Source: a virus. Taken from it: a stretch of 29,328 nucleotides of DNA. Of this stretch, positions 12,080-27,700 are shown in pieces. Numbering within the stretch: position 1 is the stretch's first letter; each line of letters opens with the position of its first letter. Both the position numbers and the translations under genes were made by a program. The stretch is from positions 1 through 29,328 of IMG/VR virus record IMGVR_UViG_3300028829_001700; one strand, written 5' to 3'. Under the pieces are notes generated by a model that was not told the DNA's origin, ran no database searches, and saw only the letters and a list, made by a program, of their open reading frames with translations.

Positions 12080-12135
12080 CCTTTTTGTTACTGAAACAGC
12101 CCTAATCATTGGGCCTTAAATCGGAGATTAAATAA

Positions 12136-12606
12136 ATGGCTAATGCAAGATACGATCAAATTATCATTACAGGTAAAGTTTATTGGGCTTCCGTTGTAGA
12201 GCCTAATACTACCTATGAGCCTTGTTGGCAGGTAGACGTATGTATTGAAGACGACGAGACCAAAGAAAAGCTACAATCCGTCGGACTACCCATTAAAAAT
12301 AAGGGTGATGAGCGTGGTGACTTCTTCTCTGCCAAGCGTAAGGTACAGAAGAAGGATGGTAGTAATCGAGATGCTCCTCGCGTCATCGACGCAAAGCGTA
12401 ATCCTTGGGACAGGCGTCTCATTGGTAATGGTAGTTTAGCTAAGATTAAAGTCCAACCCTATGATTGGGATTATGCTGGTAAGAGCGGCGTTAGCTCAGA
12501 CTTTATGGCTATGCAGGTTATCGACCTTGTGACATATGGTGATCCATCTAATGATTTCCAAGACGAAGATGGATTTAGTATTGATGACGAACTAGCAGCT
12601 TTATAA
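12136..12606 (+). CDS. T7 gp2.5-type single-stranded DNA-binding protein (156 aa)
   Basis: The OB-fold-like body has ITGKVYWASVVEPN and ERGDFFSAKRKVQKKDG with many basic and aromatic residues. It is followed by AKIKVQPYDWDY and a strongly acidic tail (FQDEDGFSIDDELAAL). The tail is the hallmark of gp2.5 and related phage SSBs, used to contact polymerase and primase-helicase. It coats single strands at the fork and helps recombination. It is the first gene of the unit driven by the promoter at 12051. Confidence 0.85.
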   Translation: MANARYDQIIITGKVYWASVVEPNTTYEPCWQVDVCIEDDETKEKLQSVGLPIKNKGDERGDFFSAKRKVQKKDGSNRDAPRVIDAKRNPWDRRLIGNGSLAKIKVQPYDWDYAGKSGVSSDFMAMQVIDLVTYGDPSNDFQDEDGFSIDDELAAL

Positions 12607-12622
12607 GAAAGGAAGTAAAATA

Positions 12623-12841
12623 ATGAAGACGAATGAAACACTAGTACTAACAGCTCTTCGACGTGGTATGCGCGTTACTCGTAAAACTTCACTTGAACGT
12701 GGGTGGTGTGAGAACCTCACCGCTACGATCTCACGCCTTCGTAAGAAGGGACACATTATCATCGCTGTACGCGCCATGTCCCCTGTTGGTGCCTATACGC
12801 GATATAAGCTACTCGCAGAGCCTACAGCACAGGCCGCGTAG
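12623..12841 (+). CDS. Winged-helix DNA-binding protein (72 aa)
   Basis: The sequence fits a small winged helix: NETLVLTALRRGMRVTRKTS, then a recognition-helix-like CENLTATISRLRKKG, then two wing strands (HIIIAVRAM, YTRYKLL). Basic overall with a short Ala-rich end. It could be a transcription regulator and is the only clear one in the window, so it is a candidate binder of the TTTACNNNGTAAA sites; this link is inference. The ribosome site AAGGAAG is strong. Codon use is more GC-rich than in the genes around it. Confidence 0.65.
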   Translation: MKTNETLVLTALRRGMRVTRKTSLERGWCENLTATISRLRKKGHIIIAVRAMSPVGAYTRYKLLAEPTAQAA

Positions 12842-12866
12842 TAGCTAACTAAGGAGGCAACAGAAC

Positions 12867-13724
12867 GTGGTAAAATCTATCGAGACATTAGTAGAAGACA
12901 TCTACTCATTGTTCAATAATGTAGAAGAAATACAGATTGATCAAAAGCATATCGACGCTTTTGCTGATGGAGTAACCCGTTCTGTTGTCTCCGCTATTTC
13001 TGAAGTTCGTAAAGAAAGAGAGCCAAATCTAAGATTGTCTCTAGTAGGACATCAAGATAGAAAGATTTGGTATGAGATGAAGGGGGTTAAGAAAGAACCT
13101 CTTTCTTCTCCTACTCTTATCAAGTTTCTTTATGGACATATTATTGAAGAACTTCTCATTTTCTTTACTAAAGTAGCAGGGCATGAGATTAAAGAAGAAC
13201 AAGCAGAATTGTACGTTAATGGAGTTAAGGGACATAAGGATGCTACAGTTGATAATGTTCTTGTAGATTTTAAGTCAGCTTCCAGTTATAGCTTTAAGAA
13301 GTTTAAGGATGGTAGCATACTTACAGATGACCCTTTTGGTTACATTGCCCAGCTATCTTCTTATGCAGAAGCCGATAGTGCTTCTAAAGCTGGGTTTATT
13401 GTTATTGATAAATCATCTGGTGAATTATGTTATTGTCCTTTAGACGAAATGGACATGATTAATCCTGTTTCCCGTATTGACAATATTAGGGAGTTTTTGA
13501 AAAGTGACACACCTCCTAAAAAATGTTATGATCCTGTGGCTGATGGTGCCAGTGGTAACTATAAGCTTAGTGTTGGGTGTAATTTTTGTGACTACAAGCA
13601 CACTTGTTGGTCGGATGCTAACAATGGTCAAGGCATACGTACATTCATGTATTCCAATGGTCCAAAAAACTTGGTTGAAGTTGCTCGAACTCCTAACGTA
13701 CCAGAAGTAACCAACAATGCCTAA
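12867..13724 (+). CDS. RecB/Cas4-like PD-(D/E)xK exonuclease (285 aa, GTG start)
   Basis: Nuclease motifs in order: HIIEE (91-95), VKGHKDATV (GHxD, His123, Asp125), VDFKSAS (Asp134, Lys136) and QLSSYAEA (QxxxY, 162-166). Four Cys (220, 238, 241, 247) in the C-terminal third are arranged as in the Fe-S cluster of Cas4/AddB-type nucleases. Takes the place of T7 gene 6 exonuclease in this gene order (SSB, exonuclease, endonuclease I). Probable roles: primer removal, host DNA breakdown, recombination. GTG 12867 is supported by AAGGAGG 9 nt upstream. Overlaps endonuclease I by 8 nt. Confidence 0.8.
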   Translation: MVKSIETLVEDIYSLFNNVEEIQIDQKHIDAFADGVTRSVVSAISEVRKEREPNLRLSLVGHQDRKIWYEMKGVKKEPLSSPTLIKFLYGHIIEELLIFFTKVAGHEIKEEQAELYVNGVKGHKDATVDNVLVDFKSASSYSFKKFKDGSILTDDPFGYIAQLSSYAEADSASKAGFIVIDKSSGELCYCPLDEMDMINPVSRIDNIREFLKSDTPPKKCYDPVADGASGNYKLSVGCNFCDYKHTCWSDANNGQGIRTFMYSNGPKNLVEVARTPNVPEVTNNA

Positions 13725-14235
13725 ATATAGGTCAGGCTCAGAGAAAAGGACAGGAGAGTTTTTAGCAACAATCAAAGTTCCTTTTTCTTTTGAGCCTCAC
13801 TATATTGAGTATACGTGGTTAGAATATAAAAAATATCTTCCAGATTTTCTTCTACCTAATGGCATCTTTTTAGAAGTTAAAGGTAGGTTTAAATTAGAAG
13901 ACAGAAAGAAACACCTCTTTATTAAGGAAATGTATCCAGATTTAGATATTCGGTTTGTCTTCGATAACCCTAACGGCAAACTAAATAAAGGCGGTAAGTC
14001 ATCTTATGCAGATTGGTGTACAAAAAACGGTTTCTTGTTCTGTAAAAATTCAGATCATGATATAATTGAAGCATGGTCACATGAACAACTTAAACTACCT
14101 AGAAGAGGAGGACGAGAAGTTTCTATTAAGCGTAGAGATTCTACTGGAAAAGCAAAAAACAAATCCAGAAAGAGTTCTTTTTCTAAGCGTAATACTTCAA
14201 GCACTCCTAGACGCAACAAAACCAGAAACACTTAA
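13717..14235 (+). CDS. T7 gp3-type endonuclease I / Holliday junction resolvase (172 aa)
   Basis: The catalytic set of T7 endonuclease I is present: SGSEKRTGEF (Glu9), LPDFLLPNG (Asp43) and FLEVKGRF (Glu53, Lys55). DIRFVFDN and the end SYADWCTKNGFLF also match. Family knowledge: a dimer that cuts four-way junctions and branched DNA to allow packaging and host DNA breakdown. T7 endonuclease I has 149 aa. Here about 50 extra residues form a Lys/Arg/Ser tail encoded by the same DNA as the next gene in another frame. Confidence 0.9.
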   Translation: MPKYRSGSEKRTGEFLATIKVPFSFEPHYIEYTWLEYKKYLPDFLLPNGIFLEVKGRFKLEDRKKHLFIKEMYPDLDIRFVFDNPNGKLNKGGKSSYADWCTKNGFLFCKNSDHDIIEAWSHEQLKLPRRGGREVSIKRRDSTGKAKNKSRKSSFSKRNTSSTPRRNKTRNT

Positions 14236-14443
14236 AGAACCTGAAGAAGAAAAGTTGGCTAGGCGTTCTGCTCAAGCTTGGTTCTTTGCGTCAGTTGGGG
14301 TAACCGCACAAGACTTTAATGATATTTGTGATTTTGCAGGAATAGCGCCTGTGAGTATGCGAAGCTTTGCTTTTAAGGTCTTGCGCTCTAATGAAGTTAC
14401 TTATATACGTAAGCGTATTAATACTGTTCTAAACTATGATTAA
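14081..14443 (+). CDS. Conserved phage protein, unknown (120 aa), overlapping endonuclease I
   Basis: ATG 14081 (or TTG 14066) lies inside endonuclease I, giving a 155-nt overlap in another frame. The product is all-helical: acidic start (YLEEEDEKFLLSVEILLEKQ), then ARRSAQAWFFASVGVTAQDF and CDFAGIAPVSMRSFAFKVL. The AQAWFFASxGVTAxDFxxxC and AG(I/V)xP patterns recur in phage proteins of this genome position and may be a DNA-binding helical unit; the role is unknown. No good ribosome site stands before either start, so translation may depend on ribosomes reading endonuclease I. Confidence 0.6.
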   Translation: MNNLNYLEEEDEKFLLSVEILLEKQKTNPERVLFLSVILQALLDATKPETLKEPEEEKLARRSAQAWFFASVGVTAQDFNDICDFAGIAPVSMRSFAFKVLRSNEVTYIRKRINTVLNYD

Positions 14444-14455
14444 CTGGAGATAAGA

Positions 14456-14740
14456 ATGGATAACGATACAGCTATCATTAACTATATGAGAGAAGCTAGG
14501 AAAGAGGAGGCTAAACTAAGCAATCCTTTATCCTCACAGGTTGGTGGCGATCACTATAAAAAATGCAGTATACAGCCAGTAGAATATATTCACGCTAATG
14601 ACATTGGTTACCTTGAAGGTAATGTGATAAAATATATAACTCGGCATCGCGTAAAGGGTCAGGGCAAAGAAGATATAGAAAAAGCCATACATTACGCAAA
14701 ATTAATATTAGAGTTAGAATATAACACAAAGGGAGAATGA
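14456..14740 (+). CDS. DUF3310 phage protein (94 aa)
   Basis: QVGGDHYKK (28-36), IQPVEYIHAN, GYLEGNVIKYITRHRVKG and the end KAIHYAKLILELEY are the DUF3310 signature. The family is common in phages and was once annotated as a nucleotide kinase, without firm proof. Its place directly before nrdA, with a 4-nt overlap, supports a link to nucleotide metabolism. Confidence 0.85.
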   Translation: MDNDTAIINYMREARKEEAKLSNPLSSQVGGDHYKKCSIQPVEYIHANDIGYLEGNVIKYITRHRVKGQGKEDIEKAIHYAKLILELEYNTKGE

Positions 14741-16536
14741 CATTGCAGCCTATCTTAAACATTAGTATTTCACCAGACAGAGATAGTCTTTTCGATGAGC
14801 TAGGCATCGCACGGTTAAAAGAATCCTACATGATGGATCACGAACTTTCCCCACAGGAAAGATTTGCTTACGTATCTAAATCATTTTCCTCTGATCAAGA
14901 ACATGCACAGCGTCTCTATGAGTACTCCTCAAAGCATTGGCTTTCTTATTCTACACCCATCCTATCTTATGGTAAGTCCTCTCGTGGTCTTCCTATCTCT
15001 TGCTACCTAAACTATATTCATGATAGTGCAGAAGGCTTAGTAGAAAACCTTTCAGAGACTAGCTGGTTGTCTATGCTTGGTGGTGGTGTGGGTATTGGCT
15101 TTGGCATACGGTCATCAGATGATAAATCAACGGGGGTTATGCCTCACTTAAAAATGTATGATGCCTCTTCCCTCGCTTATCGTCAGGGAAAGACACGCAG
15201 AGGTTCTTATGCAGCTTACCTCGATGTAGATCATCCTGATCTTCTTCTATTTTTGGAAATGAGAAAGCCTACTGGCGATCAGAACTTTCGCTGCTTAAAC
15301 ATGCATCACGGTATTAATATTAGCGACAAGTTTATGCAGCTAATAGAAACCTCTATGACAGATGATAATGTAGACGACAGTTGGGAGTTATGTGACCCTC
15401 ACTCAAAGAAAGTATATGATGTAGTCTCAGCTAAAGAAATCTGGCAGCGTATCCTAGAGATGCGTATGCAAACTGGTGAGCCTTACCTACATTTTATTGA
15501 TCGTTCTAACGAACAGCTACCTGCATGGCTAAAGCAGAAAGGTCTAAAGGTACATCAATCTAACCTTTGTTCAGAAATTATTCTCCCTACGTCAGCAGAG
15601 CGCACAGCAGTATGTTGCCTATCTTCTATAAACCTTGAGTACTTTGATGAATGGTCTAAGGATAAGCAGTTTCTACCTGACGTATTGGAAATGTTGGATA
15701 ATGTTCTTGAGTTTTTTATTAATAATGCTCCTAATTCCATCAGCCGCGCTAAGTACTCCGCTAGTAAAGAACGATCTGTTGGTGTTGGAGCCTTGGGTTT
15801 TCACGCCTACCTACAAAGCAAAGGCATGTCCTTTGAGTCAGCCGTTGCTAAATCAATCAATATGCGGATGTTTAAGCACATCAGAACAGAGCTTGATTCA
15901 GCCAACCGAAAGCTGGGAAAAGAAAGAGGAGAAGCTCCTGATGCAAAAGGAACAGGATTACGCTGCAGTCACGTTATGGCAGTCGCACCAAATGCTTCTT
16001 CTTCAATTATTATGGGAAATACCTCCCCATCTATCGAGCCTTGGAGAGCAAACGCCTATCGGCAAGATACAATTAGTGGCTCCTTTCTAAATAAAAATAA
16101 GTTCTTAGATAAACTAATCAAGGAGAAGTGTAGTGAAGATACTAAACTTGACTATGATAAGATTTGGTCTTCTGTTATTGCCAATGATGGTTCTGCACAG
16201 CATCTTCGTTGTCTCACGGAAATTGAGAAGGAAGTTTACAAAACGTCGATGGAGATAGACCAGCGTTGGGTCATTGAACATGCAGCAGATCGTCAGCAGT
16301 ATATTGATCAAGCACAATCTTTGAATATCTTCTTTCGTCCTGACGTTGACATCAGCTATCTTCATGCTGTGCATTTCATGGCTTGGAAAAAGGGGCTAAA
16401 GACTATGTACTACTGCCGCTCAGAAAAGATTGGTAAGGCTGATAAAGTCTCTCGTAAAATTGAACGACAGATTATTCAAGAACTTGATATGGAAGCATTA
16501 GCTTCTGGCGAAGAGTGTCTGGCTTGTGAGGGTTAA
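14737..16536 (+). CDS. nrdA: Ribonucleotide reductase class I large subunit (599 aa)
   Basis: Active-site residues are all visible: ISCYLN (Cys89), SNLCSE (Asn276, Cys278, Glu280), the paired Cys in VCCLSSINL (293-294), KTMYYCRS (the Tyr-Tyr pair that passes the radical) and a C-terminal CLAC (594-597) that takes electrons. Family knowledge: reduces ribonucleotides to deoxyribonucleotides with NrdB. At 599 aa it is much shorter than E. coli NrdA (761 aa). It has no recognisable N-terminal ATP cone, so allosteric activity control is probably lost, a frequent phage trait. It overlaps DUF3310 by 4 nt. Confidence 0.95.
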   Translation: MTLQPILNISISPDRDSLFDELGIARLKESYMMDHELSPQERFAYVSKSFSSDQEHAQRLYEYSSKHWLSYSTPILSYGKSSRGLPISCYLNYIHDSAEGLVENLSETSWLSMLGGGVGIGFGIRSSDDKSTGVMPHLKMYDASSLAYRQGKTRRGSYAAYLDVDHPDLLLFLEMRKPTGDQNFRCLNMHHGINISDKFMQLIETSMTDDNVDDSWELCDPHSKKVYDVVSAKEIWQRILEMRMQTGEPYLHFIDRSNEQLPAWLKQKGLKVHQSNLCSEIILPTSAERTAVCCLSSINLEYFDEWSKDKQFLPDVLEMLDNVLEFFINNAPNSISRAKYSASKERSVGVGALGFHAYLQSKGMSFESAVAKSINMRMFKHIRTELDSANRKLGKERGEAPDAKGTGLRCSHVMAVAPNASSSIIMGNTSPSIEPWRANAYRQDTISGSFLNKNKFLDKLIKEKCSEDTKLDYDKIWSSVIANDGSAQHLRCLTEIEKEVYKTSMEIDQRWVIEHAADRQQYIDQAQSLNIFFRPDVDISYLHAVHFMAWKKGLKTMYYCRSEKIGKADKVSRKIERQIIQELDMEALASGEECLACEG

Positions 16537-16705
16537 GTTACGTATTGCTTGGAATTACTGGTGTAAAGCATTAGGCAGTAAAGCATATGAAGAAGATAAT
16601 AAAGCAGATGTTGTTGCTGTTATTCGTACATTTTGGATTATTCTTCATATACTTACTTGCCTTGCTATCCTGACTCACAACTCTAAAAACTTAGGACTTT
16701 GGTAA
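16526..16705 (+). CDS. Small membrane protein between nrdA and nrdB (59 aa, GTG start)
   Basis: GTG 16526 lies 11 nt before the end of nrdA, and the stop touches the nrdB ATG. The N-terminus is basic and aromatic (VRVKLRIAWNYWCKALGSKA), then an acidic turn (YEEDNKADVV), then one membrane helix (VIRTFWIILHILTCLAIL). The exact packing between the two reductase genes, with overlaps on one side and none to spare on the other, supports coding. Similar short membrane proteins occur near the reductase genes of other phages. Role unknown. Confidence 0.65.
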   Translation: MRVKLRIAWNYWCKALGSKAYEEDNKADVVAVIRTFWIILHILTCLAILTHNSKNLGLW

Positions 16706-17680
16706 ATGACTAAAAAACTTAAACTTCAAGACGAGCGTAATTATTTTAAGCCCTTCCATTACCCTTGGGCTTATGATGCTTGGCTAAAGCATGAGCAGTC
16801 TCATTGGCTTCATACTGAAGTACCAATGCTAGAGGACGTGAAGGATTGGAAGAGTGTTCTTTCTACAGAGGAGAAGTATTTTCTTACACATATCTTTCGT
16901 TTCTTTACTCAGTCGGACATTGATGTAGCTGGTGGTTATGTAAACGACTATCTCCCACTATTCCCCCAACCTGAAGTGCGTATGATGCTGACTAGCTTTG
17001 CTGCTAGAGAAGCTCTACATGTAGCAGCCTACTCGCACCTCATCGAATCTTTAGGGATGCCTGACGCCACCTACAATGAGTTCCTAGAGTATGAAGCAAT
17101 GAAAGATAAGCATGAATATTTTCATGATAAGCTTTCAGGAGATGCTTCAGTGCCTTTAAAAATTGCAGCTATCTCTGCATTTACAGAGGGTCTAGCATTA
17201 TTCTCCTCTTTCATAATGTTGTTAAATTTTCCTCGACATGGTAAAATGAAAGGAATGGGGCAGATTGTCACATGGTCTATTGTAGATGAAACACAACATG
17301 CTGAAGGTATGATCCAATTGTTTCGTGCTTACGTCGAAGAAAATCGTGACGTATGGAACGATAAGACAAAGGGAGAGATATATACTACAGCTACTGAAAT
17401 GGTAGACTTAGAAGATAAGTTTGTTGATCTTGCTTTTAAAATGGGTAAGGTTGAAGGACTAAGAGATTATGAAGTAAAGGAATATATTAGATATATCGCT
17501 GATCGGCGGCTTATCTCTATGGGCCTGAAGGGAATTTACAAAGTAAAAACAAACCCTCTTCCTTGGGTAGAGACAATGATCAATGCACCTACTCACACAA
17601 ACTTCTTTGAGAATCGTGCTACTGATTATGCTAAAGGAGCTTTACAAGGTAATTGGAGTGATGTTTGGAAAACTAAATAA
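16706..17680 (+). CDS. nrdB: Ribonucleotide reductase class I small subunit (324 aa)
   Basis: The di-metal ligands of ferritin-like NrdB are present: Asp71 or Asp73 (TQSDIDVAGG), Glu102 and His105 (REALHVAAYSH), Glu161 (FTEGLALF), and Glu195 and His198 (VDETQHAEG). Tyr109 stands four residues after His105, the place of the radical tyrosine in E. coli NrdB (ExxHxxxY), so a normal tyrosyl radical is expected. It generates and stores the radical used by NrdA. Length is slightly below E. coli NrdB (376 aa). A chance-looking TTTACAAAGTAAA palindrome occurs at 17535-17547. Confidence 0.95.
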   Translation: MTKKLKLQDERNYFKPFHYPWAYDAWLKHEQSHWLHTEVPMLEDVKDWKSVLSTEEKYFLTHIFRFFTQSDIDVAGGYVNDYLPLFPQPEVRMMLTSFAAREALHVAAYSHLIESLGMPDATYNEFLEYEAMKDKHEYFHDKLSGDASVPLKIAAISAFTEGLALFSSFIMLLNFPRHGKMKGMGQIVTWSIVDETQHAEGMIQLFRAYVEENRDVWNDKTKGEIYTTATEMVDLEDKFVDLAFKMGKVEGLRDYEVKEYIRYIADRRLISMGLKGIYKVKTNPLPWVETMINAPTHTNFFENRATDYAKGALQGNWSDVWKTK

Positions 17681-17695
17681 TGTAGGGAGATTAAC

Positions 17696-17995
17696 ATGGC
17701 TAGAGATTATAAAAGAGAAAACAAGGTAACAAAAAGTAAACCTAAAAATATTGCTAAACGTGTAGCAAGAAATAAGGCACGTAGGGAAGCTATTAGAAAA
17801 GGGCGAGTATCTGTTGGAGATGGTAAGGAACTAGACCATATTAAACCTATAAGTAAAGGAGGTTCTAATAAAAAGTCTAATATTAGAATTACAACTAAAA
17901 GCCAGAACAGTTCCTTTGATCGTAATCCTGATAAGTCAGTAAAGAAAAATAGACTTAACAAAAGAAAAGGGAAAACTACTAAAAAGAATGCTTAA
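17696..17995 (+). CDS. Small HNH-type endonuclease (99 aa)
   Basis: The core is GKELDHIKPISKGGSN (Asp47-His48), then KSNIRI (Asn62) and SQNSSF (Asn71), an HNH layout without the zinc Cys pairs. Both ends are rich in Lys and Arg (KRVARNKARREAIRKG, KKNRLNKRKGKTTKK). This kind of free-standing HNH protein is widespread in marine phages; it may be a homing enzyme or a DNA processing nuclease. Arginine is mostly AGA/AGG here, while nrdB next door uses CGT, consistent with a later insertion. It overlaps the next gene by 8 nt. Confidence 0.75.
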   Translation: MARDYKRENKVTKSKPKNIAKRVARNKARREAIRKGRVSVGDGKELDHIKPISKGGSNKKSNIRITTKSQNSSFDRNPDKSVKKNRLNKRKGKTTKKNA

Positions 17996-18560
17996 CTTAC
18001 TCCCATACAAGCTATATGAACATCAACTTCCAAAAGAACTTTGCAAAGGCTTAATAGGCATGGCTAAAGCTGACTTTGAGAACGCCGAAGTTTACGAAGA
18101 TGGTGAAGATGTAAAGAATACTTCAGTCAGAAATAATAAAATTAAATGGTTTAATAATTCAGAAATTATTGAAATACTTAGTACATATGCTGAGAAAGCT
18201 AATGTAGAAGCTAATTGGTTTTTTGATGTAGATAGTCATGAAGTTCCACAAGTATCTTCCTATGGGCCGGGAGAGTTCTACGATTGGCATGTTGACATAG
18301 GTGTAGAAAGCCCTGATGAAGTTCACTTTAGAAAAATTACCGTAGCGGTTAATTTAAATGACGACTATGAAGGTGGTGAGTTTCAGATTGAAAAGTGGTG
18401 TGCGCCTAATGTAAGGCACAGGGCTAAAACAATCACCAAGGCTAAGGGGATAGGTTCTGTTCTAGTCTTTCCCTCCTTCCTACATCACAGAGTTAAAGCA
18501 GTTACAGAGGGAAATAGATACTCCTTAGTCTGTTGGTTTAGGGGATCACGCTTCTCCTAA
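17988..18560 (+). CDS. 2-oxoglutarate/Fe(II) oxygenase, prolyl-4-hydroxylase type (190 aa)
   Basis: Iron ligands fit the double-stranded beta-helix family: FYDWHVDIG (His101, Asp103) and FLHHRVKAV (His166 or 167), followed by GNRYSLVCWFRG with Arg177 to hold 2-oxoglutarate. VSSYGPGEFYDWH and EGGEF are typical of PKHD-type hydroxylases. It would hydroxylate a protein, amino acid or nucleic acid target, unknown here. Family members are frequent in aquatic phages. It ends the reductase unit; a new promoter starts 14 nt later. Confidence 0.85.
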   Translation: MLNLLPYKLYEHQLPKELCKGLIGMAKADFENAEVYEDGEDVKNTSVRNNKIKWFNNSEIIEILSTYAEKANVEANWFFDVDSHEVPQVSSYGPGEFYDWHVDIGVESPDEVHFRKITVAVNLNDDYEGGEFQIEKWCAPNVRHRAKTITKAKGIGSVLVFPSFLHHRVKAVTEGNRYSLVCWFRGSRFS

Positions 18561-18573
18561 ATTAAAATAGTTG

Positions 18574-18602
18574 TTGACTTTTCTAAAATATAACTATATA
18601 AT
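18574..18602 (+). promoter_or_regulatory. Near-consensus sigma70 promoter for the hsp20 unit
   Basis: TTGACT at 18574-18579, exactly 17 bp, and a perfect TATAAT at 18597-18602. The predicted start is near 18608-18610, leaving a leader of about 63 nt with two hairpins. The best promoter match I found in the window. Confidence 0.88.
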
Positions 18603-18608
18603 GTAGAG

Positions 18609-18636
18609 ACAGTCGCTTAAAAGGGCTGTTTTTATC
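18609..18636 (+). terminator. 5'-end hairpin with U-run just after the promoter (attenuator or leader helix)
   Basis: ACAGTC 18609-18614 pairs with GGCTGT 18624-18629 (six pairs, one G-U), loop of nine. The run TTTTT follows, so the shape is that of a weak terminator starting at the first transcribed base. It may cause early termination, or serve as the first helix of the thermometer-like leader and protect the 5' end. Confidence 0.5.
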
Positions 18637-18642
18637 TTATTT

Positions 18643-18666
18643 GTATTTGCTAAAAGAAAGGAATAC
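18643..18666 (+). promoter_or_regulatory. ROSE-like RNA thermometer hairpin over the hsp20 ribosome site
   Basis: GUAUUUGCU (18643-18651) faces AGGAAUAC (18659-18666) across a 7-nt loop. Five Watson-Crick pairs are followed by U-G, a bulged G, then C-G and U-A. The element UUGCU opposite the Shine-Dalgarno AGGA with one unpaired G is the defining 3' hairpin of ROSE elements, which control small heat shock genes in alphaproteobacteria and E. coli ibpA. AGGA is 9 nt before the ATG of an Hsp20 gene. Known ROSE leaders are often longer with more hairpins. Confidence 0.72.
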
Positions 18667-18671
18667 ACATA

Positions 18672-19103
18672 ATGAACGTAGTAACATTTGCCCCTCACTT
18701 CGAGAAGATGCGTAACTTTATGCTTGATGTAGACAAATATCTTGAGCCTCTAAATTATGTAGCACAATCTGTTGCAAACAGCAGTACTTATCCATTTCAT
18801 AATATCTATAAAAAAGAAGAGAATCATGTTATTGAGATTGCTCTTGCTGGTTTTACTAAAGACGAAATTGAAGTAGAACTAGAACCTAATATTTTAACAA
18901 TTCAGAGTACAAAATATAAAGGTAAGACACCTACTGTAGATATGAAGTTTAATGGTATTTCTAATAGAAATTTTCGGAGAGTTTTTTATCTAGCTGATAT
19001 GATGCGAGTTATCTCTTGTAAAATGGAAAATGGTATGCTAACAATAACCATTAAGAAAGAAGTACCTGAAGAAAACAAGCCTACAAAAATAACAGTAGAA
19101 TAA
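18672..19103 (+). CDS. Hsp20 / alpha-crystallin small heat shock protein (143 aa)
   Basis: The alpha-crystallin domain spans about residues 40-131: YPFHNIYKKEENHVIEIAL, AGFTKDEIEVELEPNILTI, FRRVFYLADMMRV, and the closing CKMENGMLTITI (family pattern xxxxGxLxIxI). A short C-terminal tail contains KITVE, like the IxI/V anchor used in oligomers. It resembles IbpA-type holdases that keep unfolding proteins soluble without ATP. In a phage it may protect virion or replication proteins or help capsid folding. It is first in a unit with its own promoter and a thermometer-like leader. Confidence 0.9.
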   Translation: MNVVTFAPHFEKMRNFMLDVDKYLEPLNYVAQSVANSSTYPFHNIYKKEENHVIEIALAGFTKDEIEVELEPNILTIQSTKYKGKTPTVDMKFNGISNRNFRRVFYLADMMRVISCKMENGMLTITIKKEVPEENKPTKITVE

Positions 19104-19115
19104 GGAGTACTGGGT

Positions 19116-19865
19116 TTGCCTATCAATAAACTACCCACAATTTATATTGGTTATGATCCACGCGAACGAGATTATGTTCGTGCCTTAGATAAATCAATTA
19201 GAATGAACACTAAAGACACGTATAACATTGTGCCTATTGTACAAAAGGAAGTACGTCGCTCAGGTCTTTACTGGCGTAGCCCTACTACAGACTTAGAAGG
19301 GAATCGTGTGGATGTTTTTGATGGCAAACCCTTTTCTACTGAATTTAGTTTTACCCGCTTTTTAGTTCCTTTTCTAAACCAAATGTCTGGATTAGCTCTC
19401 TTCATGGATGCTGATATGTTTGTTCGTTCAGATATTACAGAAATATTTGATCTATACGGACAGAGTAATCAATACGCTATTAGTTGTGTACAGCATGATC
19501 ATGCTCCATCAGAAAAAACTAAAATGGATGGACAGGTACAAACTATTTATAGACGTAAGAATTGGTCTTCTTTTGTTTTATGGAACTGTGATCATCCTTG
19601 GGTAAAACAGTTTAACATAGGAGATGTCAATACTAAGTCAGGCTCTTGGCTACACGCCTTTGAATGGATGGATACATATCCTATTGGTTCAATTAAGGAA
19701 GAGTGGAATTGGCTTGATGGAACTTCCGATGAAGACGTGGAAGCAAACAATGTTCATTTCACAACAGGAGGTCCGCTATACCCTGATTGGCAGGGTAAAC
19801 GTCCTATAGATAATGAGTACGCAGCAATGTGGAAAGATTTTTATAAACACGCAGTACAAGGATAA
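19116..19865 (+). CDS. Glycosyltransferase, GT8-like (249 aa, TTG start)
   Basis: Begins with PTIYIGYDPRERDYVRALDKS, as in GT-A glycosyltransferases, and has the metal-binding DxD motif in LALFMDADMF (Asp98, Asp100). TEFSFTRFLVPFLN before it and HFTTGGPLYPDW near the end also fit. It would transfer a sugar from a nucleotide sugar to an unknown acceptor: phage DNA, a virion protein or a host surface glycan. TTG 19116 has AAGGAG 7 nt upstream and no better start exists before the conserved strand. The next gene begins 10 nt later. Confidence 0.8.
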   Translation: MPINKLPTIYIGYDPRERDYVRALDKSIRMNTKDTYNIVPIVQKEVRRSGLYWRSPTTDLEGNRVDVFDGKPFSTEFSFTRFLVPFLNQMSGLALFMDADMFVRSDITEIFDLYGQSNQYAISCVQHDHAPSEKTKMDGQVQTIYRRKNWSSFVLWNCDHPWVKQFNIGDVNTKSGSWLHAFEWMDTYPIGSIKEEWNWLDGTSDEDVEANNVHFTTGGPLYPDWQGKRPIDNEYAAMWKDFYKHAVQG

Positions 19866-19875
19866 TAATAATAAA

Positions 19876-22170
19876 ATGATTCGTTTTGTAACTTCTTTTA
19901 GCGCAGACGGCTACGAAAGATATGCTCAGAAGATGCTAGAATCCGTAGTGGAGAATTGGCATCCTGATCTAAAGCTAACAGCGTATTACCATGATTGTGA
20001 AGAAGCCCTTGTTTCTGCTTTTCCTAAAGCATCCAACATTGAGTATCGTAATCTTAATGAAGTAGAAGATATGTTAGCATACCGTGAGCGTATGAAGGCG
20101 TATGATGGTACAGCTAATGGACAGACTGCTTATGATTGGCGTATGGACGCTATTAAGTGGTGCCACAAGGTCTACGCGCTAACTGATTTGGGCTTAGAAC
20201 TAGCTGACAAAGACGCAGAGGCTGGTTGGATGTGTTGGCTAGATGCTGATACAGTGACAACCAAGCCGCTTACCGTAGAGAAAGTCTCAGCCCTCCTGCC
20301 AGAAAAAGCACATCTAGTGCATCTTGGCCGTAAAGACGTAGACTATAGCGAGACATCCTTTATTGGATTTAATCTCAGCTATGAATCTCCTGTCTATATG
20401 ATTGCTGACCTTCGTGGCTGCTACGATATTGGCGAGGTTGTCTCTTATCGCGAGTGGCACGACGGCTTTATCTTTGAGCGTCTACTAAAGATTTATACGG
20501 CACATGGTATGCGTGTCCATAATCTAACTCCTGATGTAGAAGGATTAGCAGCCTTTCAAAGCTCCCCTCTATCTCAGTACATGACACACTATAAAGGTGC
20601 CTTAAAGAATAATCTATCAGATACTCAGGTAGCACCAGATATTAAGTTACCAAGATACCGCCAACTTGCTGATCTTATCCGCACATATGGCAGTGAAACC
20701 TTTGTAGAGGTTGGTACATGGAACGGTGGCCGCGCCATTGAGATGGCTCTAGCTTCCTTTGAAAGTAAAGAAAAGCTACACTACATTGGCTTTGATTTGT
20801 TTGAAGAAGCTACTGAAGAATTAGATGTCTACGAATTAAATAGTAAACAACATAATACACTTACCGCTGTAAGCAATCGCCTAAAAGAATTTGCTGCTAA
20901 AATGAAGGAGGATGGTAAAGAGTTTACCTTTGAGCTTCATAAAGGAAATAGTAAAGAAACATTAGTTGCTGCTAAAGAAAGCCTTGCTAAAGCGAATTTT
21001 GCTTATATTGATGGAGGGCATTCAGAAGAGACGGTACTCAGTGACTATAAAAATCTAGAGCATTGTGATGTTATTGTCTTTGATGATTACTTTAGCAAAG
21101 ATCAAGAAGGAAATATTCTGGGTGAAGAATATCTAGGAACTAATCGCCTTATTGACGGCTTTAAAGATACACTATCTGAAGGACGCTGTATTGTTCTTCC
21201 CTCACAGGATAAGGTTAAAGGTGGAGGTATTACCCATCTTGCTCTCCTGCTCTCTAAGGATGACCTTCCACAGCCTCCTGTTGACCTTCTAAAGGTTCCG
21301 ATTATTGTTAAGCCTAAAGACTCTATGCCTAAAGAGTATATTATGCAGAGCATTAATGATAATCTAAAGCTAATAAAAAAGTGGGGCTTTGTCCAAAGTT
21401 GTAAACCTAACGCAGAACATGCAATTGTTGTTTCAGGCGGTCCCTCAACTGATTATAAAAAGCTAAAGAAAGTTATTAAAGAAACAAATGGTGTGGTACT
21501 ATGTGTAAAGCATAGTTATCCAGAACTATTAAAGAATGGTATTGTTCCTTTTGGGTGTATTATTCTTGATCCGCGTTCTATTGATGGCGTTTCTACTCAT
21601 GGTATTGTACGGAAAGATTTATTTAATACGTTAGATAAGGATACAAAATTCTTTGTGGCGTCTATGACAGACGTTAGCGTTACTAAATATCTTATGAGTA
21701 AAACAGATAATGTATACGGATGGAATGCTTATTCCGAAGCAGTTGTAGAAGCAACTAAAAATGAAAGCTTCGCTATTGACGAAGGTCTTAATATTCCTAA
21801 AGATACTACTTTCGTAACTGGGGGTACGTGTTCAGCAATGCGTACTATTGGGATGTTTCATATCCTAGGCTTCCGTAACTTCCATCTATTTGGTTTTGAT
21901 TGCAGCATCCCAGAAATGACAGATGATATGAAAAAGGAAAGGACAGAAGACGATAAGCCAAAGTATCTAAATGTTGAGACAAATGGTGCAAAGTTCTGGA
22001 CTACAGGAGAGCTTTTAGCTATGGCACAAGATTGTGAGAAGTTGTTTAGTAATCAGGATATTGAAATGAATGTTTCTATTTATGGCGAAGGAACTCTTGT
22101 TGCAGAAATTTTTAAAGATACTTATCATGCGGATAAACCATACTATAAGGATTTAATTAAACAATGTTAG
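19876..22170 (+). CDS. Three-domain glycosyltransferase / methyltransferase / MptE-like protein (764 aa)
   Basis: Domain 1 (about 1-240) is a glycosyltransferase-like fold with WLDADT (from about 121) and WHDGFIFERLL. Domain 2 (about 265-430) is a class I SAM methyltransferase of the Methyltransf_24 kind: FVEVGTWNGG (276), YIGFDLFEE, YIDGGHSEE (377), DVIVFDDYF. Domain 3 (about 510-764) resembles MptE / DUF115 proteins: AIVVSGGPSTDY (517), ILDPR, FVTGGTCSAMRTIG (646), LFGFDCSIP. DUF115 proteins act in flagellin or surface sugar pathways. The fusion suggests a single enzyme that builds and methylates a glycan. ATG 19876 was chosen because an upstream ATG at 19813 lies inside the previous gene and adds 21 unlike residues. 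Confidence 0.75.
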   Translation: MIRFVTSFSADGYERYAQKMLESVVENWHPDLKLTAYYHDCEEALVSAFPKASNIEYRNLNEVEDMLAYRERMKAYDGTANGQTAYDWRMDAIKWCHKVYALTDLGLELADKDAEAGWMCWLDADTVTTKPLTVEKVSALLPEKAHLVHLGRKDVDYSETSFIGFNLSYESPVYMIADLRGCYDIGEVVSYREWHDGFIFERLLKIYTAHGMRVHNLTPDVEGLAAFQSSPLSQYMTHYKGALKNNLSDTQVAPDIKLPRYRQLADLIRTYGSETFVEVGTWNGGRAIEMALASFESKEKLHYIGFDLFEEATEELDVYELNSKQHNTLTAVSNRLKEFAAKMKEDGKEFTFELHKGNSKETLVAAKESLAKANFAYIDGGHSEETVLSDYKNLEHCDVIVFDDYFSKDQEGNILGEEYLGTNRLIDGFKDTLSEGRCIVLPSQDKVKGGGITHLALLLSKDDLPQPPVDLLKVPIIVKPKDSMPKEYIMQSINDNLKLIKKWGFVQSCKPNAEHAIVVSGGPSTDYKKLKKVIKETNGVVLCVKHSYPELLKNGIVPFGCIILDPRSIDGVSTHGIVRKDLFNTLDKDTKFFVASMTDVSVTKYLMSKTDNVYGWNAYSEAVVEATKNESFAIDEGLNIPKDTTFVTGGTCSAMRTIGMFHILGFRNFHLFGFDCSIPEMTDDMKKERTEDDKPKYLNVETNGAKFWTTGELLAMAQDCEKLFSNQDIEMNVSIYGEGTLVAEIFKDTYHADKPYYKDLIKQC

Positions 22171-22565
22171 GAATTGCGGAATCAGTTATAGGTGTTACAG
22201 GAAAAATTCTTGATAAATTTATTGAGGATAAAGACCTAAAGACTAAGCTAGAAGCAGAGCTTAATGAGCAGCTAGTGTCCCTCGATCTTGCTCAAGCACA
22301 AGCTAATATTGAACAAGCAAAGCATCCCTCTATCTTTGTAAGTGGAGCTAGACCAGCCATCATGTGGGTCTGCTGCTTTGCTCTTGCTTGGCAGTTTATC
22401 CTTGCTCCTGTTACAAGCTGGGGGTTAGCCATTTGGTATCCTATTATTACGCTTCCTGTGTTAGACACTCAGTCTCTTATGACGCTTCTATTATCTCTTC
22501 TAGGACTTGGCGGTATGCGCTCTGCTGAAAAGTGGAAAGGTGTTGCCAGAAATAATATGAAATAA
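22164..22565 (+). CDS. Holin-like protein, 3-TM type (133 aa)
   Basis: The N-terminal 60 residues are amphipathic helix (LDKFIEDKDLKTKLEAELNE, then LDLAQAQANIEQAKHPS). ARPAIMWVCCFALAWQFILAP and further hydrophobic stretches form two or three membrane helices (about 63-112). The end is basic (MRSAEKWKGVARNN). This is the layout of the 3TM phage holin family, which opens the inner membrane at lysis. Overlaps the glycan gene by 7 nt and the terminase by 1 nt. Confidence 0.75.
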   Translation: MLGIAESVIGVTGKILDKFIEDKDLKTKLEAELNEQLVSLDLAQAQANIEQAKHPSIFVSGARPAIMWVCCFALAWQFILAPVTSWGLAIWYPIITLPVLDTQSLMTLLLSLLGLGGMRSAEKWKGVARNNMK

Positions 22566-23074
22566 TGGCACTCAACGATAAACAAGAGAAGTTTGCACAA
22601 GCTTATGTACTCTATCGAAATGCTACCGAAGCTGCTAAGGCTGCGGGGTATGCGGGTAGGTCTGCATATAATCAAGGTAGTAGGCTTTTAAAGATAGGAG
22701 AAGTAAACGAAAGAATTGAAGACCTTGAAAAGGAGATGGAGACATCTATTGATTATGTTGCTGAGATTGAAAAGCAGTATACATATGCTACCAACAATAA
22801 TCATACTAACTCTGCGCTTAAAGCACTTGAACTTCTTAGTAGATTACGTGCTCCTACAGACGAGGATACGCCTACTACTGTGGAGGAGTTGGAAGAAGAT
22901 ATTGTCAAAAGTCTTGAGCTATTAGGCGAGGACAGAACCATCAAGCTTTTCACAAAGTGTTCTTGGTTCGATGAGCAAGAAGAAGAGATGGAAGAGCTTC
23001 AGGAAGAAGTTGAAGAGCTAGAAGAAATCTTAGATGAGTTAGCTGAAAAAGAGATTATTGATGATCAAGTGTGA
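22565..23074 (+). CDS. Small terminase subunit (169 aa)
   Basis: LNDKQEKFAQAYVLYRNATEAAKAAGYAGRSAYNQGSRLLK at 3-43 is the Terminase_2 helix-turn-helix start: a (K/Q)xxFxxxYxxxxNATxAAxxAGY pattern that binds the packaging site. A central helix follows, then a long acidic coiled coil (EEEMEELQEEVEELEEILDE at 139-158). No large terminase gene is in the window; it probably lies beyond an edge. The last gene but one of the rightward arm. Confidence 0.85.
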   Translation: MALNDKQEKFAQAYVLYRNATEAAKAAGYAGRSAYNQGSRLLKIGEVNERIEDLEKEMETSIDYVAEIEKQYTYATNNNHTNSALKALELLSRLRAPTDEDTPTTVEELEEDIVKSLELLGEDRTIKLFTKCSWFDEQEEEMEELQEEVEELEEILDELAEKEIIDDQV

Positions 23075-23210
23075 GGATAAATGTACGATAGACCTTAACC
23101 ATCATTATTGTATTAAGTGTAATCGTTCAGTTGAAGAGATAAAAGAAGATAACGAAAAAAAGAAACAGGAAAAACTTCTCAAGAAAGCTTGGAAGAATTT
23201 ACCTGTTTAG
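23061..23210 (+). CDS. DUF1289-like small zinc protein (49 aa)
   Basis: CEDKCTIDLNHHYCIKCNRSVEEI matches the DUF1289 outline (CxxxCxID, YCxxCxRxxEEI): Cys 4, 8, 17 and 20. A Lys/Glu-rich helix follows. DUF1289 proteins are small, common in proteobacteria and of unknown function. ATG 23061 overlaps the terminase end by 14 nt. It closes the rightward arm and is followed by a terminator 23 nt later. Confidence 0.65.
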   Translation: MIKCEDKCTIDLNHHYCIKCNRSVEEIKEDNEKKKQEKLLKKAWKNLPV

Positions 23211-23232
23211 GCTTGTCCCTTAATAGACACGC

Positions 23233-23264
23233 GGAAGAGCATGGTTACTCTTCCATTTTATTTA
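23233..23264 (+). terminator. Rho-independent terminator at the end of the rightward arm
   Basis: GGAAGAG 23233-23239 pairs with CTCTTCC 23248-23254 around an 8-nt loop, followed by ATTTTATTTA. It serves rightward transcripts only: on the other strand the stem is followed by GCGTGTCT, not a U-run. Confidence 0.8.
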
Positions 23265-23279
23265 TAACTCCAAATAGTA
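23258..23279. repeat. 22-bp direct repeat, copy 1 (copy 2 at 24096-24117)
   Basis: TTATTTATAACTCCAAATAG plus TA is identical in both places, 838 bp apart. Read on the minus strand it contains the codons for TIWSYK, a stop, and the GGAG ribosome site for whatever follows. Copy 2 serves the end of the M15 peptidase and the start of the 249-aa virion gene. Copy 1 serves only remnants. Confidence 0.85.
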
Positions 23280-23311
23280 AGCACCATCCTTACATCAATA
23301 GCTCCTTCCAT
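23258..23311 (-). pseudogene. 17-codon ORF with C-terminal TIWSYK copied from the M15 peptidase gene
   Basis: On the minus strand, AAAGGAG stands 7 nt before an ATG that opens a 17-codon frame ending TIWSYK and TAA. The M15 peptidase ends with the same six residues, the same stop and the same DNA (22 bp identical). Following it on the minus strand is ATG GAA GAG TAA, a dead gene start. It looks like the remnant of a duplicated gene boundary rather than a working gene, though the strong ribosome site leaves a small peptide possible. Confidence 0.5.
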
Positions 23312-23334
23312 TGATAATCTCCTTTATTATGGTG
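23282..23334. repeat. Nested inverted repeats downstream of the leftward arm
   Basis: Outer arms CACCAT (23282-23287) and ATGGTG (23329-23334) enclose inner arms ATCAAT (23294-23299) and ATTGAT (23310-23315). On the minus strand this would fold soon after the stop of the 249-aa gene and hide the start codon of the 17-codon frame. No U-run follows, so it may slow transcripts or protect the 3' end of the virion message. Confidence 0.4.
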
Positions 23335-23344
23335 AATAATTATT

Positions 23345-24094
23345 TTAATCTACAGAACTATTTTTAATATATATCATTGAAAAGTCTGCAGAAATTGAGT
23401 TATTTGTTCCAGAAGATACTGCTCGTGCTTCTACGTCAGTTTTTTCGGGTATTAAGATAGGATACCGGATAACAAAATCTGCAGCAGCACCCTCACTAAG
23501 AGACTGTTTCAGCAAAGCTCTAAACACACCGTCTAATTGACGTTGAACAAATTGAGCAGTGACATATTGGTTATTATTAGTCGTTCCAGTAGAGAAGTTT
23601 ACATGATCTAAAAATCCAGTGTATCCGGCTGGTACTGTCCACATAGCCATCAGCGTCTGGTTTTCACCTGCAGTAATACGAGCGTATGTAGTCCCGCCAT
23701 TGGTGATGTTTAAGTCGGCAGTTGGTTCTTGTGAGCCTAATACAAATGCACGAAAAACACGAAGAAAGGTTTGTATTGTAGTAGCTGTACCTGCACCAGC
23801 TAGTGTTACTTCTTCACTAACTTCATTGTAGTCTTCGTCTAAACCTTGTATTGTAACCTTAACACCATTATCAGTTGCCGGTGAACCTGCGGCGGTAGTT
23901 ACCGTCATAACAACAGCAGAACTAGGGTAAGCGTACAGTCCACCTGCATCCCAAATAGTTTCTTCTGTTCCGTCTACGTCTGGATTAAATCCAAACTTAA
24001 AAATTGTTTTGTGATTTTCTATCTGACCACGAGCAACTTGTAGTTCAAAAGGTTCGTTTTTACCAAAACGTGTAATTGAGGAAGGTATTGCCAT
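23345..24094 (-). CDS. Probable virion structural protein, beta-rich (249 aa)
   Basis: Starts MAIPSSITRFGKNEPFELQV, then a long series of short strands with Thr, Ala and Gly (VVMTVTTAAGSPA, VKVTIQGLDED, VTLAGAGTAT, TYARITAGENQTL), and no Cys. Such an all-beta, Cys-free protein within the virion arm of a podovirus-like genome is most likely a tail, decoration or fibre-associated protein. I recall similar starts in other marine podovirus proteins of unknown function. The ribosome site TTTGGAG comes from the end of the M15 gene, 1 nt away. Confidence 0.6.
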   Translation of the reverse strand: MAIPSSITRFGKNEPFELQVARGQIENHKTIFKFGFNPDVDGTEETIWDAGGLYAYPSSAVVMTVTTAAGSPATDNGVKVTIQGLDEDYNEVSEEVTLAGAGTATTIQTFLRVFRAFVLGSQEPTADLNITNGGTTYARITAGENQTLMAMWTVPAGYTGFLDHVNFSTGTTNNNQYVTAQFVQRQLDGVFRALLKQSLSEGAAADFVIRYPILIPEKTDVEARAVSSGTNNSISADFSMIYIKNSSVD

Positions 24095-24095
24095 A

Positions 24096-24488
24096 TTATT
24101 TATAACTCCAAATAGTAGGACGCGGTGTTGTATCAGAGTTTAACATAGTATCAATATGTATGAACCTTTTATTGTGTGGTCCTCTTTGTGCTACCCCTAT
24201 CCCTGTAAAGCCGTGTAGAATAGCTTTATTAACTAATGCATAAGCTTGGCTACCTGAGATAGCTACGTCTACAGCCTGACCGAGAATATGCGCTGACTTA
24301 GGAGAGCCTCCTACTGCTGCATTGTATTCAGAGCTACGGTAGCCTGACGTAATAACCATAGGCTTACCGTAATCTTCACGTAGAAGAATAAGTTGTTTCA
24401 TAAACTCTTTGTCCATAAAACATTCTCCTGTACCCTTACATCCTAATTCTTTCTCAGTAAAGTATTTCCAGTCGTTTGTCCCAGACAT
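24096..24488 (-). CDS. M15-type peptidase, probable endolysin (130 aa)
   Basis: The peptidase M15 pattern is complete: ITSGYRSSEYNAAVGG (Arg51), SAHILGQAVDV (zinc His67 and Asp74) and FIHIDT (zinc His111). Family knowledge: cuts D-amino-acid or L-Ala-D-Glu bonds in peptidoglycan stems. There is no signal peptide, so release through a holin is expected. It may act as the endolysin, or as a virion-borne peptidase given its place among structural genes. Start ATG 24488 overlaps the upstream stop by one base, with AAAGG nearby. Confidence 0.85.
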   Translation of the reverse strand: MSGTNDWKYFTEKELGCKGTGECFMDKEFMKQLILLREDYGKPMVITSGYRSSEYNAAVGGSPKSAHILGQAVDVAISGSQAYALVNKAILHGFTGIGVAQRGPHNKRFIHIDTMLNSDTTPRPTIWSYK

Positions 24489-24733
24489 TATTTTACCTTT
24501 ACTAAAAAAGAATCTAACTTAGCATCTAGCCTATCAAATCTATCCATGATTTTATTAAGGTCTTTCTCTACGTCTGCCTTAGTCGCATAGGTTTTGGCGA
24601 CCTCTTCTCGTGTGTCAGCCACGCGCCGCTTAGTATCCTGTACCTGTTGGCTAATACCACGCACCCACCATATAAAGGAGCCACCGGCTATACTTAGTAT
24701 TGCATTCCAAATCATAGTAGGGTCACTAGGCAT
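24488..24733 (-). CDS. Small membrane-anchored coiled-coil protein, holin or spanin-like (81 aa)
   Basis: One N-terminal membrane helix (MIWNAILSIAGGSFIWWV) is followed by a long charged coiled coil (VQDTKRRVADTREEVAKTYA, then KDLNKIMDRFDRLDAKLDSF). This shape fits an inner-membrane spanin or a class III-type holin. Being next to the M15 endolysin supports a lysis role. The ribosome site AAAGGAA is good. Identity beyond the shape is not certain. Confidence 0.6.
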   Translation of the reverse strand: MPSDPTMIWNAILSIAGGSFIWWVRGISQQVQDTKRRVADTREEVAKTYATKADVEKDLNKIMDRFDRLDAKLDSFLVKVK

Positions 24734-24751
24734 TTTATTTATTCCTTTAAA

Positions 24752-27700
24752 TTAATCTGTAACGATAGAACGTGATGAGTCAAGAATGTCTTGTAAATTT
24801 TCAGTTGCTTCTGCTTTAATATCTCTAGCTTGTGGTATGTTTCTTAAAAAAGGGACTAAGTCAGCTATAAAACGAGCCAATGATCTAGATTCTCCTTTAG
24901 CTCCATAATTATACAAAGCTGCTGTTCCCTTTTCTAAGCTTGAAGCGCTAGGACCAAGAATAGCAGCAATGAAATTTGTTCCGTACTTCTGCGAATTAAT
25001 CGCATCATAAATAAGAGTAAAGCCACCTAATATATTAGTTCTCAGTAAAGCTTGTAGAAGTTTATCTTTCCCGTCTAATTCGTCAAAGGGGCTTTCTTCA
25101 TCCCCATATCGGATATTATCTTTTAAACCTTGGATAGCTAAAGCCATTGCCATAATTCCTGCTAAGGCTACTCCATATTTTAGGGCGTCTGTAGCGGGAA
25201 TACGTCCCTTGGTTAAAGGAACAATAATTTCTCGCCACATACGAGTGCCTACTGTATTGCCAAAGACCAAGGCAAAACCCTTTAGCTGTGCTACGGAAGC
25301 GTAATGAGGGTCTGACATCCATAAAGGTCTATTAACAGCATTAGGAGCCATAATAAACTCATTCACTGTTCTAGATAAAGCTTTACGAATAATCTCAGGA
25401 TCACCATCTTCTACATTTTTAGCTTTAGAATTAGGAGTAGCATACCAAGCTTGTACTGATTCAGCATCAGGATTGGTGATACCTTGTTCCGCTAAACGTC
25501 TTCTAGCAAGTCGATATTCTTGAGTCTTTGTTTTCCCTGCATTTACAATCTTTAAATCATTACGCATCTGCATACGAGTAGCCTGAAAAGCAATATCTCT
25601 ACTTATCTGCGTTACAGTTGTTAGAAGGGTAGCTTTAAAAAAAGCATTAGTTACTTTACGAGCTACCGTAACATTGGCTAGATCACCAAAGCGTTCCGCT
25701 AGGCTTCCATCTAAACCTTCTAGAATACCAGCAAAAGCTTTTTCTTTTGCATTCATTTTCATCTTAGGAAAGAATTTTCTACTCCCCGCCCTTAACGCAT
25801 TATAAGAAGCACTTACTGTACCAAATAAAGCATACCGAGGATTTAACCTAGATAAGACAATAATAGGTTCAGATAAAGCTGTAAGACCAGCTAAAGGAAG
25901 TGTTAGTATGTATTGCCCAGTTAGTATCCACTTTTGAATACCCTGTACCTTCTTATTACGTAAGGGCTTATACTTACTTTGTGTAGCATCATATAAATCA
26001 GAAATCCACTCTTGTTCTTGTTGAGTAGTTTCTTTTAGTGTCGGAAGAATGGTGTTAATTTCATTAGCCATTTCTTTACCAATGATTCTTTTGTTAGCGT
26101 CTAAAACATATTTATACATAAGACCTTCAATATCAGTCTCTACTAATCCTGCTTTATCTAAAGCTTCTACATCTTCCTTACTAAGTCGCCTCTCTTGTTC
26201 AAAAGACTTTTGACTAGAGACTGCTTTATTAGAATCGCCTACATTAATTTTATCGTCTGATTGTGTATTGTCGTAAACACCTTCATTATCGTAAATATTT
26301 TCAACAATAGAAGAAGCACTAGCTTTACTTTTACCTCTGCCCATAAGAACTTTAATCATTCTTTTCCTATTTAAAGGACCAGTTTTATAAACCCTAGGAA
26401 GGTAGCCTTCTTCAAAGTTAAGCTGAATACCTGCTTTATTGAGACGATCATAGAAACCATCATAAATAGGTTCAAAAACTGTTTTGTTAGATAAGTTTTT
26501 AAACTTGTCTGAATTTATAATAGATTCTCTAATAGATGCTTCCTCATTAGGAGCAGCCTGAACACGCTGTGTGTACTCATTTCTTAATTCTTGTACCTCA
26601 TTATCTAAGCCAAGAACCGTCTCTGTATCTATGTCACCTGCGTTATAAGCATTGCTAACATCTTCTCCTAATACAGAAGAACCTTCATAAGTTTCTTCAC
26701 TAAAGACTGCATTTTCTACAGACTTTTTATTTAACTTAACAGGTCTTTTAATGCGCCCTGTTTTAGGGTCTACAGGAGCATTTCCTAAAAACTCTCTAAG
26801 TTTTGTAGCAACGCTATCAATACGAGCATCACCATCTAATTCACCAGTAGTCATTACTTTAAATACACGACGACTAACTGCTTTAGGAATAGCTCTCTGA
26901 AGAATAGGAATACGAAAGCTTCTACGCAACTCTCTAAAAATAGGCTGTAGTTGATCAGCATCTTGCCCTACAGCAGCACTAATATTAGAGGCGTTGTTAG
27001 CAAATAAATTAACAATACGTGCTTCACCCTCTCCTCTACGAGAGAATGGAGCTAAAACACTTAAAGCACTACGCATTAGACCTGAAATAATAGGTCTATC
27101 TGTCATCTGTTTAGAAGACTTTTCTCTTCCAAAGGTTCGTGTACCTGTCGCACCAAAAGACCCTCCAAGCTCAGTTTCCTGATCTCGCACACCCTTGGCT
27201 AACTCATCTAAAGTTTCTTCTAGTTCTATAGCTCTATTAGCTGACTGTGTTTGTAGTACACCTCCTAAAGCAGAAGTACCTGCTCCAGCAGCTTTACCAC
27301 CTACAACGCCTAAAGCACCAGCATCAACAAGTCTATTAAAGTATTCAGCACCTTCGTAAGGAATAGCAGTCTTATCAGCAGCCAAACCAGCAGCAGCTAT
27401 TTGCGTAGCCTCTTGTGCAGTTTCAGTAATTCCTTCAGATAAACCGCCTCTTAAACTTCCTTTAGCAACATTACCAGCAAATTTTAGACCTTTTGTTACA
27501 GCAGTTTCTGCTACTTCTTTACCTACTTTTTTACCTAGTTCATCTGTTACCGCTTTTTTACCAAACTCTTTAACAAAACTTTTAAGTAAAAGACTAGCGC
27601 CAATCTTGTCCAAAACACCAATAACAACACCACCAGCGGAAGCAGCCTTATCAGCTATTTCTGGGTCAGCGCCTAAATTAAGAGCTTCTTCTTTTACTTG

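Follow-up and report, generated by a model that had tools for sequence, protein, structure and literature searches.

Does the leader of a phage-borne small heat shock gene act as an RNA thermometer of the ROSE type? The gene lies on a 29,328-base IMG/VR virus fragment, which was analysed over its entire length and is referred to here as the window; its source is called a marine phage. The plus strand carries T7-type replication and nucleotide genes (helicase-primase, endonuclease I, ThyX, ribonucleotide reductase, and small terminase), and additional genes are located on the minus strand. The closest relatives of the encoded DNA polymerase are those of the pelagiphages HTVC103P and HTVC104P, with 48% identity, and no similarity of the window to known phages was found at the DNA level. 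The hsp20 gene (18672..19103, plus strand) starts with the ATG at 18672 and encodes a small heat shock protein of 143 amino acids (PF00011, E 2e-17), which was IbpA-like according to NCBIfam, with a score under the cut-off. A 2OG-Fe(II) oxygenase gene lies upstream, and the two genes are separated by a promoter and a leader of ~63 nt. We conclude that the hsp20 mRNA very probably begins with a leader (positions 18609-18674) that serves as a ROSE-like RNA thermometer of a phage branch; melting was modelled, and temperature-dependent translation is inferred.

The promoter is of the sigma70 type (TTGACT-17-TATAAT, 18574..18602, plus strand) and agrees with the consensus at 11/12 positions. It ranked first among the 51 promoter-like sites detected in a scan of positions 10,000-29,328, a total that equals the chance expectation. 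The corresponding transcription start (+1) is inferred to be at about 18609. Within the clade of the window, the promoter is kept before the hsp20 leaders. Many phage leaders have a -10-like or a T4-type late element ~11-14 nt upstream of the first hairpin, designated hairpin I. TATAAT was present at this site in 9/10 leaders of the window's clade, in 30/41 of the HTVC group, and in about half of the cyanophage groups; the late element WATAAATA was present in 36/60 leaders of the Melnitz group and 47/63 of the Mosig group. The promoter type varies across phages while the RNA leader stays conserved.

The RNA element extends on the plus strand from the inferred +1 to the ATG (about 18609-18674) and contains two hairpins with one bulged G each. 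Hairpin I (18609..18629, plus strand; ACAGUC[G]CU UAAA AG GGCUGU) begins at the inferred +1, has its single bulged G at 18615, and is supported by folding, covariance models, and compensated pairs. It is immediately followed by a terminator-like U-run (18629..18635, plus strand), which is constant in the window's clade, with at least 5 U in 8 positions in 10/10 leaders. Hairpin II (18643..18666, plus strand; GUAUUU[G]CU ... AGGAAUAC) places the anti-Shine-Dalgarno sequence UUGCU, with the bulged G at 18649, opposite AGGA at 18659-18662, and is supported by sequence, folding, conservation, and models. The Shine-Dalgarno sequence AGGA (18659..18662, plus strand) is thereby sequestered, as judged from the sequence and from modelled accessibility. 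The helix consists of eight pairs, namely (adding 18600) G43-C66, U44-A65, A45-U64, U46-A63, U47-A62, U48.G61, the bulged G49, C50-G60, and U51-A59. Both hairpins were present in the minimum-energy fold of the leader (z = -2.07), and the bulged-G form was the energy minimum at 15 C. RNAalifold, applied to eight related leaders, likewise returned two hairpins with a single bulged G in each, hairpin II being identical to the bulged-G helix of the window.

An initial annotation, made from sequence alone, had already described UUGCU (18647-18651) facing AGGA with one bulged G in front of a clear Hsp20, downstream of a near-consensus sigma70 promoter. Both descriptions held, the pairing at exactly these bases. 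The further claim of five additional Watson-Crick pairs (GUAUU with AAUAC) held only in part, since U47-A62 had been counted twice and the helix comprises eight rather than nine pairs. The proposed start of the element at 18597 failed, as this position falls within the -10 box. Hairpin I, which is part of the element (18609-18629), had not been described.

To assess conservation, hsp20 leaders were collected by similarity of the proteins, not by likeness of the leaders, and named phages were added. The collection comprised 242 distinct leaders of 60 nt each, nearly all from phages and mostly from marine ones; the bacterial Marivita leader L051 was included. As controls served 176 Shine-Dalgarno-bearing leaders that came from the same contigs but belonged to other genes. 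The choice of start codons favoured starts having a Shine-Dalgarno sequence, which was also required of the controls. The bulged-G anti-Shine-Dalgarno hairpin was found in 238/242 hsp20 leaders versus 13/176 controls (shuffle mean 24), and the strict form UYGCU...AGGA in 217/242 versus 4/176 (shuffle mean 11). A hairpin I with a single bulged G was present in 243/256 leaders versus 9% of shuffles; when a different bulged base was required, just 4-10 leaders complied. The UYGCU/AGGA pairing was kept at 21 related hsp20 loci, and every leader of the window's clade retained promoter, hairpin I, and hairpin II. Because the leaders are related by descent, these counts do not represent independent events. 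In the set examined, the ROSE-like leader is near-universal upstream of phage hsp20. Among the only four exceptions is Vibrio phage IBT_VpB-34 (L058), whose hsp20 has no bulged-G leader. The unverified record 'Pseudomonas phage Y7' (OQ572409) was excluded from the phage counts as probable bacterial DNA; the ibpA in this record (OQ572409.1, L059) gave a full ROSE_3 match of 69 bits.

In the alignment of the window's clade, 100% of cells were paired, and four pairs of hairpin I were compensated, with both sides changed. Hairpin II was invariant in this clade and among the eight closest leaders, and its covariation therefore derives from more distant phages. Across 87 leaders, 11/15 pairs showed compensated changes, and the covariation score was 0.54, compared with 0.19 for shuffled and at most 0.15 for slid versions of the alignment. 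The 87-leader alignment was fitted to a model and is thus biased toward the structure. Two covariance models, R1 (from a seed of 17 leaders in register) and R2 (87 leaders), contained no leader from the window's clade. A whole-leader MAFFT alignment of 54 phages was dropped as a model basis, as the group with UUCG loops was out of register. With both models, positions 18609-18674 were the top match on either strand of the window, with 17.2 bits and E 0.006 for R1 (runner-up 10.9) and 20.0 bits and E 0.008 for R2 (runner-up 13.2); these E-values are rough. The hsp20 leaders of the window's relatives were also matched by a model made without this clade. A filtered scan of whole records with R2 did not report the window, and the match is therefore clear by rank and modest by score.

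The initial annotation had classified the leader as a ROSE-like thermometer and had proposed a search with the ROSE family model and an alignment of related phage leaders as checks. The Rfam models RF00435, RF01832, and RF02523 gave no match in the window at strict or loose thresholds; neither the 43-bit curated cut-off of RF02523 (ROSE_3) nor the curated cut-offs of RF00435 and RF01832 (ROSE, ROSE_2) were reached. The alignment revealed conserved pairing of the UUGCU/AGGA type and compensatory changes. The sequence, structure, and gene-context features of the ROSE-like class are present in the window leader: the UYGCU/Shine-Dalgarno pairing in the 3'-proximal hairpin, a single bulged G inside this pairing, two hairpins (two to four in the class) in a short leader, and a small heat shock gene downstream. 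For the remaining feature, temperature-dependent opening and translation, the support comes from modelling only. Furthermore, RF02523 matched the hsp20 leader of Methylophilales phage Melnitz-3 at 34.1 bits, under its 43-bit cut-off, and R2 gave 29.5 bits for the Pseudomonas-type ibpA leader in OQ572409. Thus, the short ROSE of Pseudomonas and the phage leaders belong to one structural type. The window leader is a divergent member of the ROSE-like branch that fails the formal Rfam test, and in this sense the classification is supported, with the function inferred.

In the proposed mechanism, hairpin I at the extreme 5' end would be the stable one, and hairpin II would pair UUGCU with AGGA around one bulged G, leaving less access for ribosomes in the cold. 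On warming, the weak step formed by U.G, bulged G, and C-G would allow hairpin II to open, and more Hsp20 would be synthesized. The U.G / bulged G / C-G step of hairpin II in the window also occurs in a ROSE-like RNA of solved structure, where it weakens the stem and where deletion of the G cuts heat induction (PMC11342760). The modelled accessibility of the Shine-Dalgarno sequence in the window leader rose from 0.07 at 5 C to 0.37 at 45 C. Shine-Dalgarno accessibility was below that of the control leaders at all temperatures modelled (p 4e-4 or less) and increased with temperature. The control leaders opened with temperature as well, and the modelled opening was gradual rather than switch-like. 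Nearest-neighbour folding parameters omit the special bulged-G geometry and tertiary contacts and cannot show a switch. Melting within the growth range of the host and a rise of Hsp20 translation with temperature are inferred, and expression data are lacking.

R2 was also run blind over 190 alphaproteobacterial genomes. The 13 best matches all ended at a start codon, that of hsp20 in seven cases, rpoH in five, and dnaK in one, whereas the next two did not end at the start of any of these genes. NCBIfam confirmed four rpoH and two hsp20 products; for another hsp20 product (L398), there was merely a weak match to IbpB, and the remaining products were named from sequence or by similarity to phage Hsp20. 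Since the model knew nothing of bacterial genes, this association constitutes the strongest functional evidence. The phage-type ROSE-like leaders concerned (L390-L402), upstream of rpoH in five genomes, of dnaK in one, and of hsp20, belong to Alphaproteobacteria mostly with small genomes.

The leader and the gene had further been proposed to come together from an alphaproteobacterial host. In the Hsp20 tree, the window's clade was nearest to that of pelagiphage HTVC103P, with weak support (82/63), and no bacterial or host donor was resolved for it. As this leader also occurs on hsp20, rpoH, and dnaK of small-genome Alphaproteobacteria and the tree is unresolved, such an origin is plausible only and remains one possibility. 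Cyanophages encode small heat shock proteins of the proteobacterial class A, which sets these apart from the proteins of their hosts, and Prochlorococcus is without one of its own (PMC3827213). Thus, gene and sensor appear to travel together.

Four other readings of the leader were considered. The one that survives best is self-repression, in which the main role of the leader is to bind Hsp20 and translation is blocked until Hsp20 is drawn to aggregated proteins. E. coli IbpA represses its own translation via the ibpA 5' UTR, for which Arg93 and probably also Tyr34 are needed (PMC10474464); the equivalents in the window Hsp20 are Arg99 and Tyr40. Outside the HTVC group, 217/229 distinct Hsp20s retained the equivalent of Arg99, as did the four proteins inspected from that group. 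One RNA element common to hsp20, rpoH, and dnaK leaders would also fit a shared trans-acting binder. However, the arginine sits in a generally conserved stretch of the alpha-crystallin domain, thermosensing alone accounts for the bulged-G/Shine-Dalgarno pairing, and binding data are lacking. The balance tips against self-repression as the chief role, and it remains a live complement that could operate alongside temperature sensing.

We consider it improbable that the structured leader merely lowers basal translation or guards the 5' end of the mRNA, without sensing temperature in the host range. The position of hairpin I at the inferred 5' end and the gradual modelled opening favour this reading; it leaves unexplained, however, the bulged G kept in both hairpins, the UYGCU motif, and the blind link to heat shock genes. 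Similarly doubtful is an intrinsic terminator or attenuator formed by hairpin I and the U-run just past the promoter, with the thermometer being secondary. In its favour, hairpin I is stronger in the window's clade (median -14.8 versus about -7 to -9 kcal/mol), and the U-run is present in 10/10 of its leaders. Against it, few leaders of the HTVC and cyanophage groups have the U-run, although these groups retain hairpin I and its bulged G; moreover, the stem of the window from +1 is weak (-6.1 kcal/mol), and the site was not reported by a terminator scan. Chance pairing around an ordinary Shine-Dalgarno site, for which a relaxed match in about 7-10% of control or shuffled leaders could be cited, is all but ruled out by conservation across phages, covariation, and the models made without the window's clade. 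Two other candidates were dropped, namely CsrA-type GGA sites in both hairpins, as hairpin I does not retain GGA (the window has GGG there and L021 has GGU), and cross-pairing of UCGCU in hairpin I with the Shine-Dalgarno sequence, which fails in the L014 clade.

Among known thermometers, the short ROSE of Pseudomonas ibpA (RF02523, ROSE_3; PMC3669281) shares with the window leader two hairpins within ~60 nt, UYGCU opposite the Shine-Dalgarno sequence with a bulged G in hairpin II, a bulged G also in hairpin I of the family consensus, and a small heat shock gene downstream. The window leader differs in being unmatched by the Rfam model, A+U-rich, and located in a phage, and in having a sigma70-type instead of a sigma32 promoter and a U-run after hairpin I. 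Rhizobial ROSE (RF00435) and enterobacterial ibpA ROSE (RF01832) have the UYGCU/Shine-Dalgarno core and the bulged G and likewise precede small heat shock genes, but are longer, with three to four hairpins, and gave no match in the window. The ROSE-like oppF thermometer (PMC11342760), whose solved structure contains the identical U.G / bulged G / C-G step, serves a bacterial ABC transporter gene. The hsp17 thermometer of Synechocystis (PMC4166951, PMC4477652) also precedes a small heat shock gene, but is a single hairpin. In phages, temperature-responsive leaders are known for lambda cIII, SPbeta blyA, and sigma70 of gut Caudoviricetes (PMC11182007). None of these is ROSE-like or located on hsp20: cIII uses alternative structures, sigma70 is reported to be of the fourU type, and blyA reportedly has a similar agsA-like terminal hairpin. 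A ROSE-type thermometer on phage hsp20 has not been reported in the open-access literature searched; subscription papers were outside the search.

While phage RNA thermometers are known from few cases (PMC11182007), the ROSE-like leader almost always accompanies hsp20 in phages that infect SAR11, methylotrophs, and cyanobacteria. This points to phages adjusting their chaperone production to temperature through translation, without reliance on the transcription control of the host. If true, this would explain heat-responsive phage hsp20 under phage late or sigma70-type promoters, and it raises the testable question whether warming alters the supply of phage chaperone and the burst. A bolder reading, which we regard as no more than possible in its entirety, is that a mobile cassette for heat sensing, made up of ROSE-like leader and class A hsp20, is common to marine phages as a group, that this cassette works in SAR11, methylotrophs, and cyanobacteria under different promoters, and that hsp20, rpoH, and dnaK of small-genome Alphaproteobacteria are controlled by the same RNA element. 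As the element is shared with host rpoH, phage Hsp20 may then also act on host rpoH messages.

Two further observations concern the leaders of the window's clade. Most members have an unusually stable hairpin I, and the U-run comes after it (18609-18635 in the window, as well as L005, L009, L014, and L021), an arrangement that resembles an intrinsic terminator at the +1 of its own transcript. In the L014 leader (5926-6003), the Shine-Dalgarno region (AGGAGGUAUAC) pairs with the -10 region (GUAUACUUCC) when DNA upstream of the inferred +1 is included in the fold; an RNA beginning at +1 would be without most of this partner.
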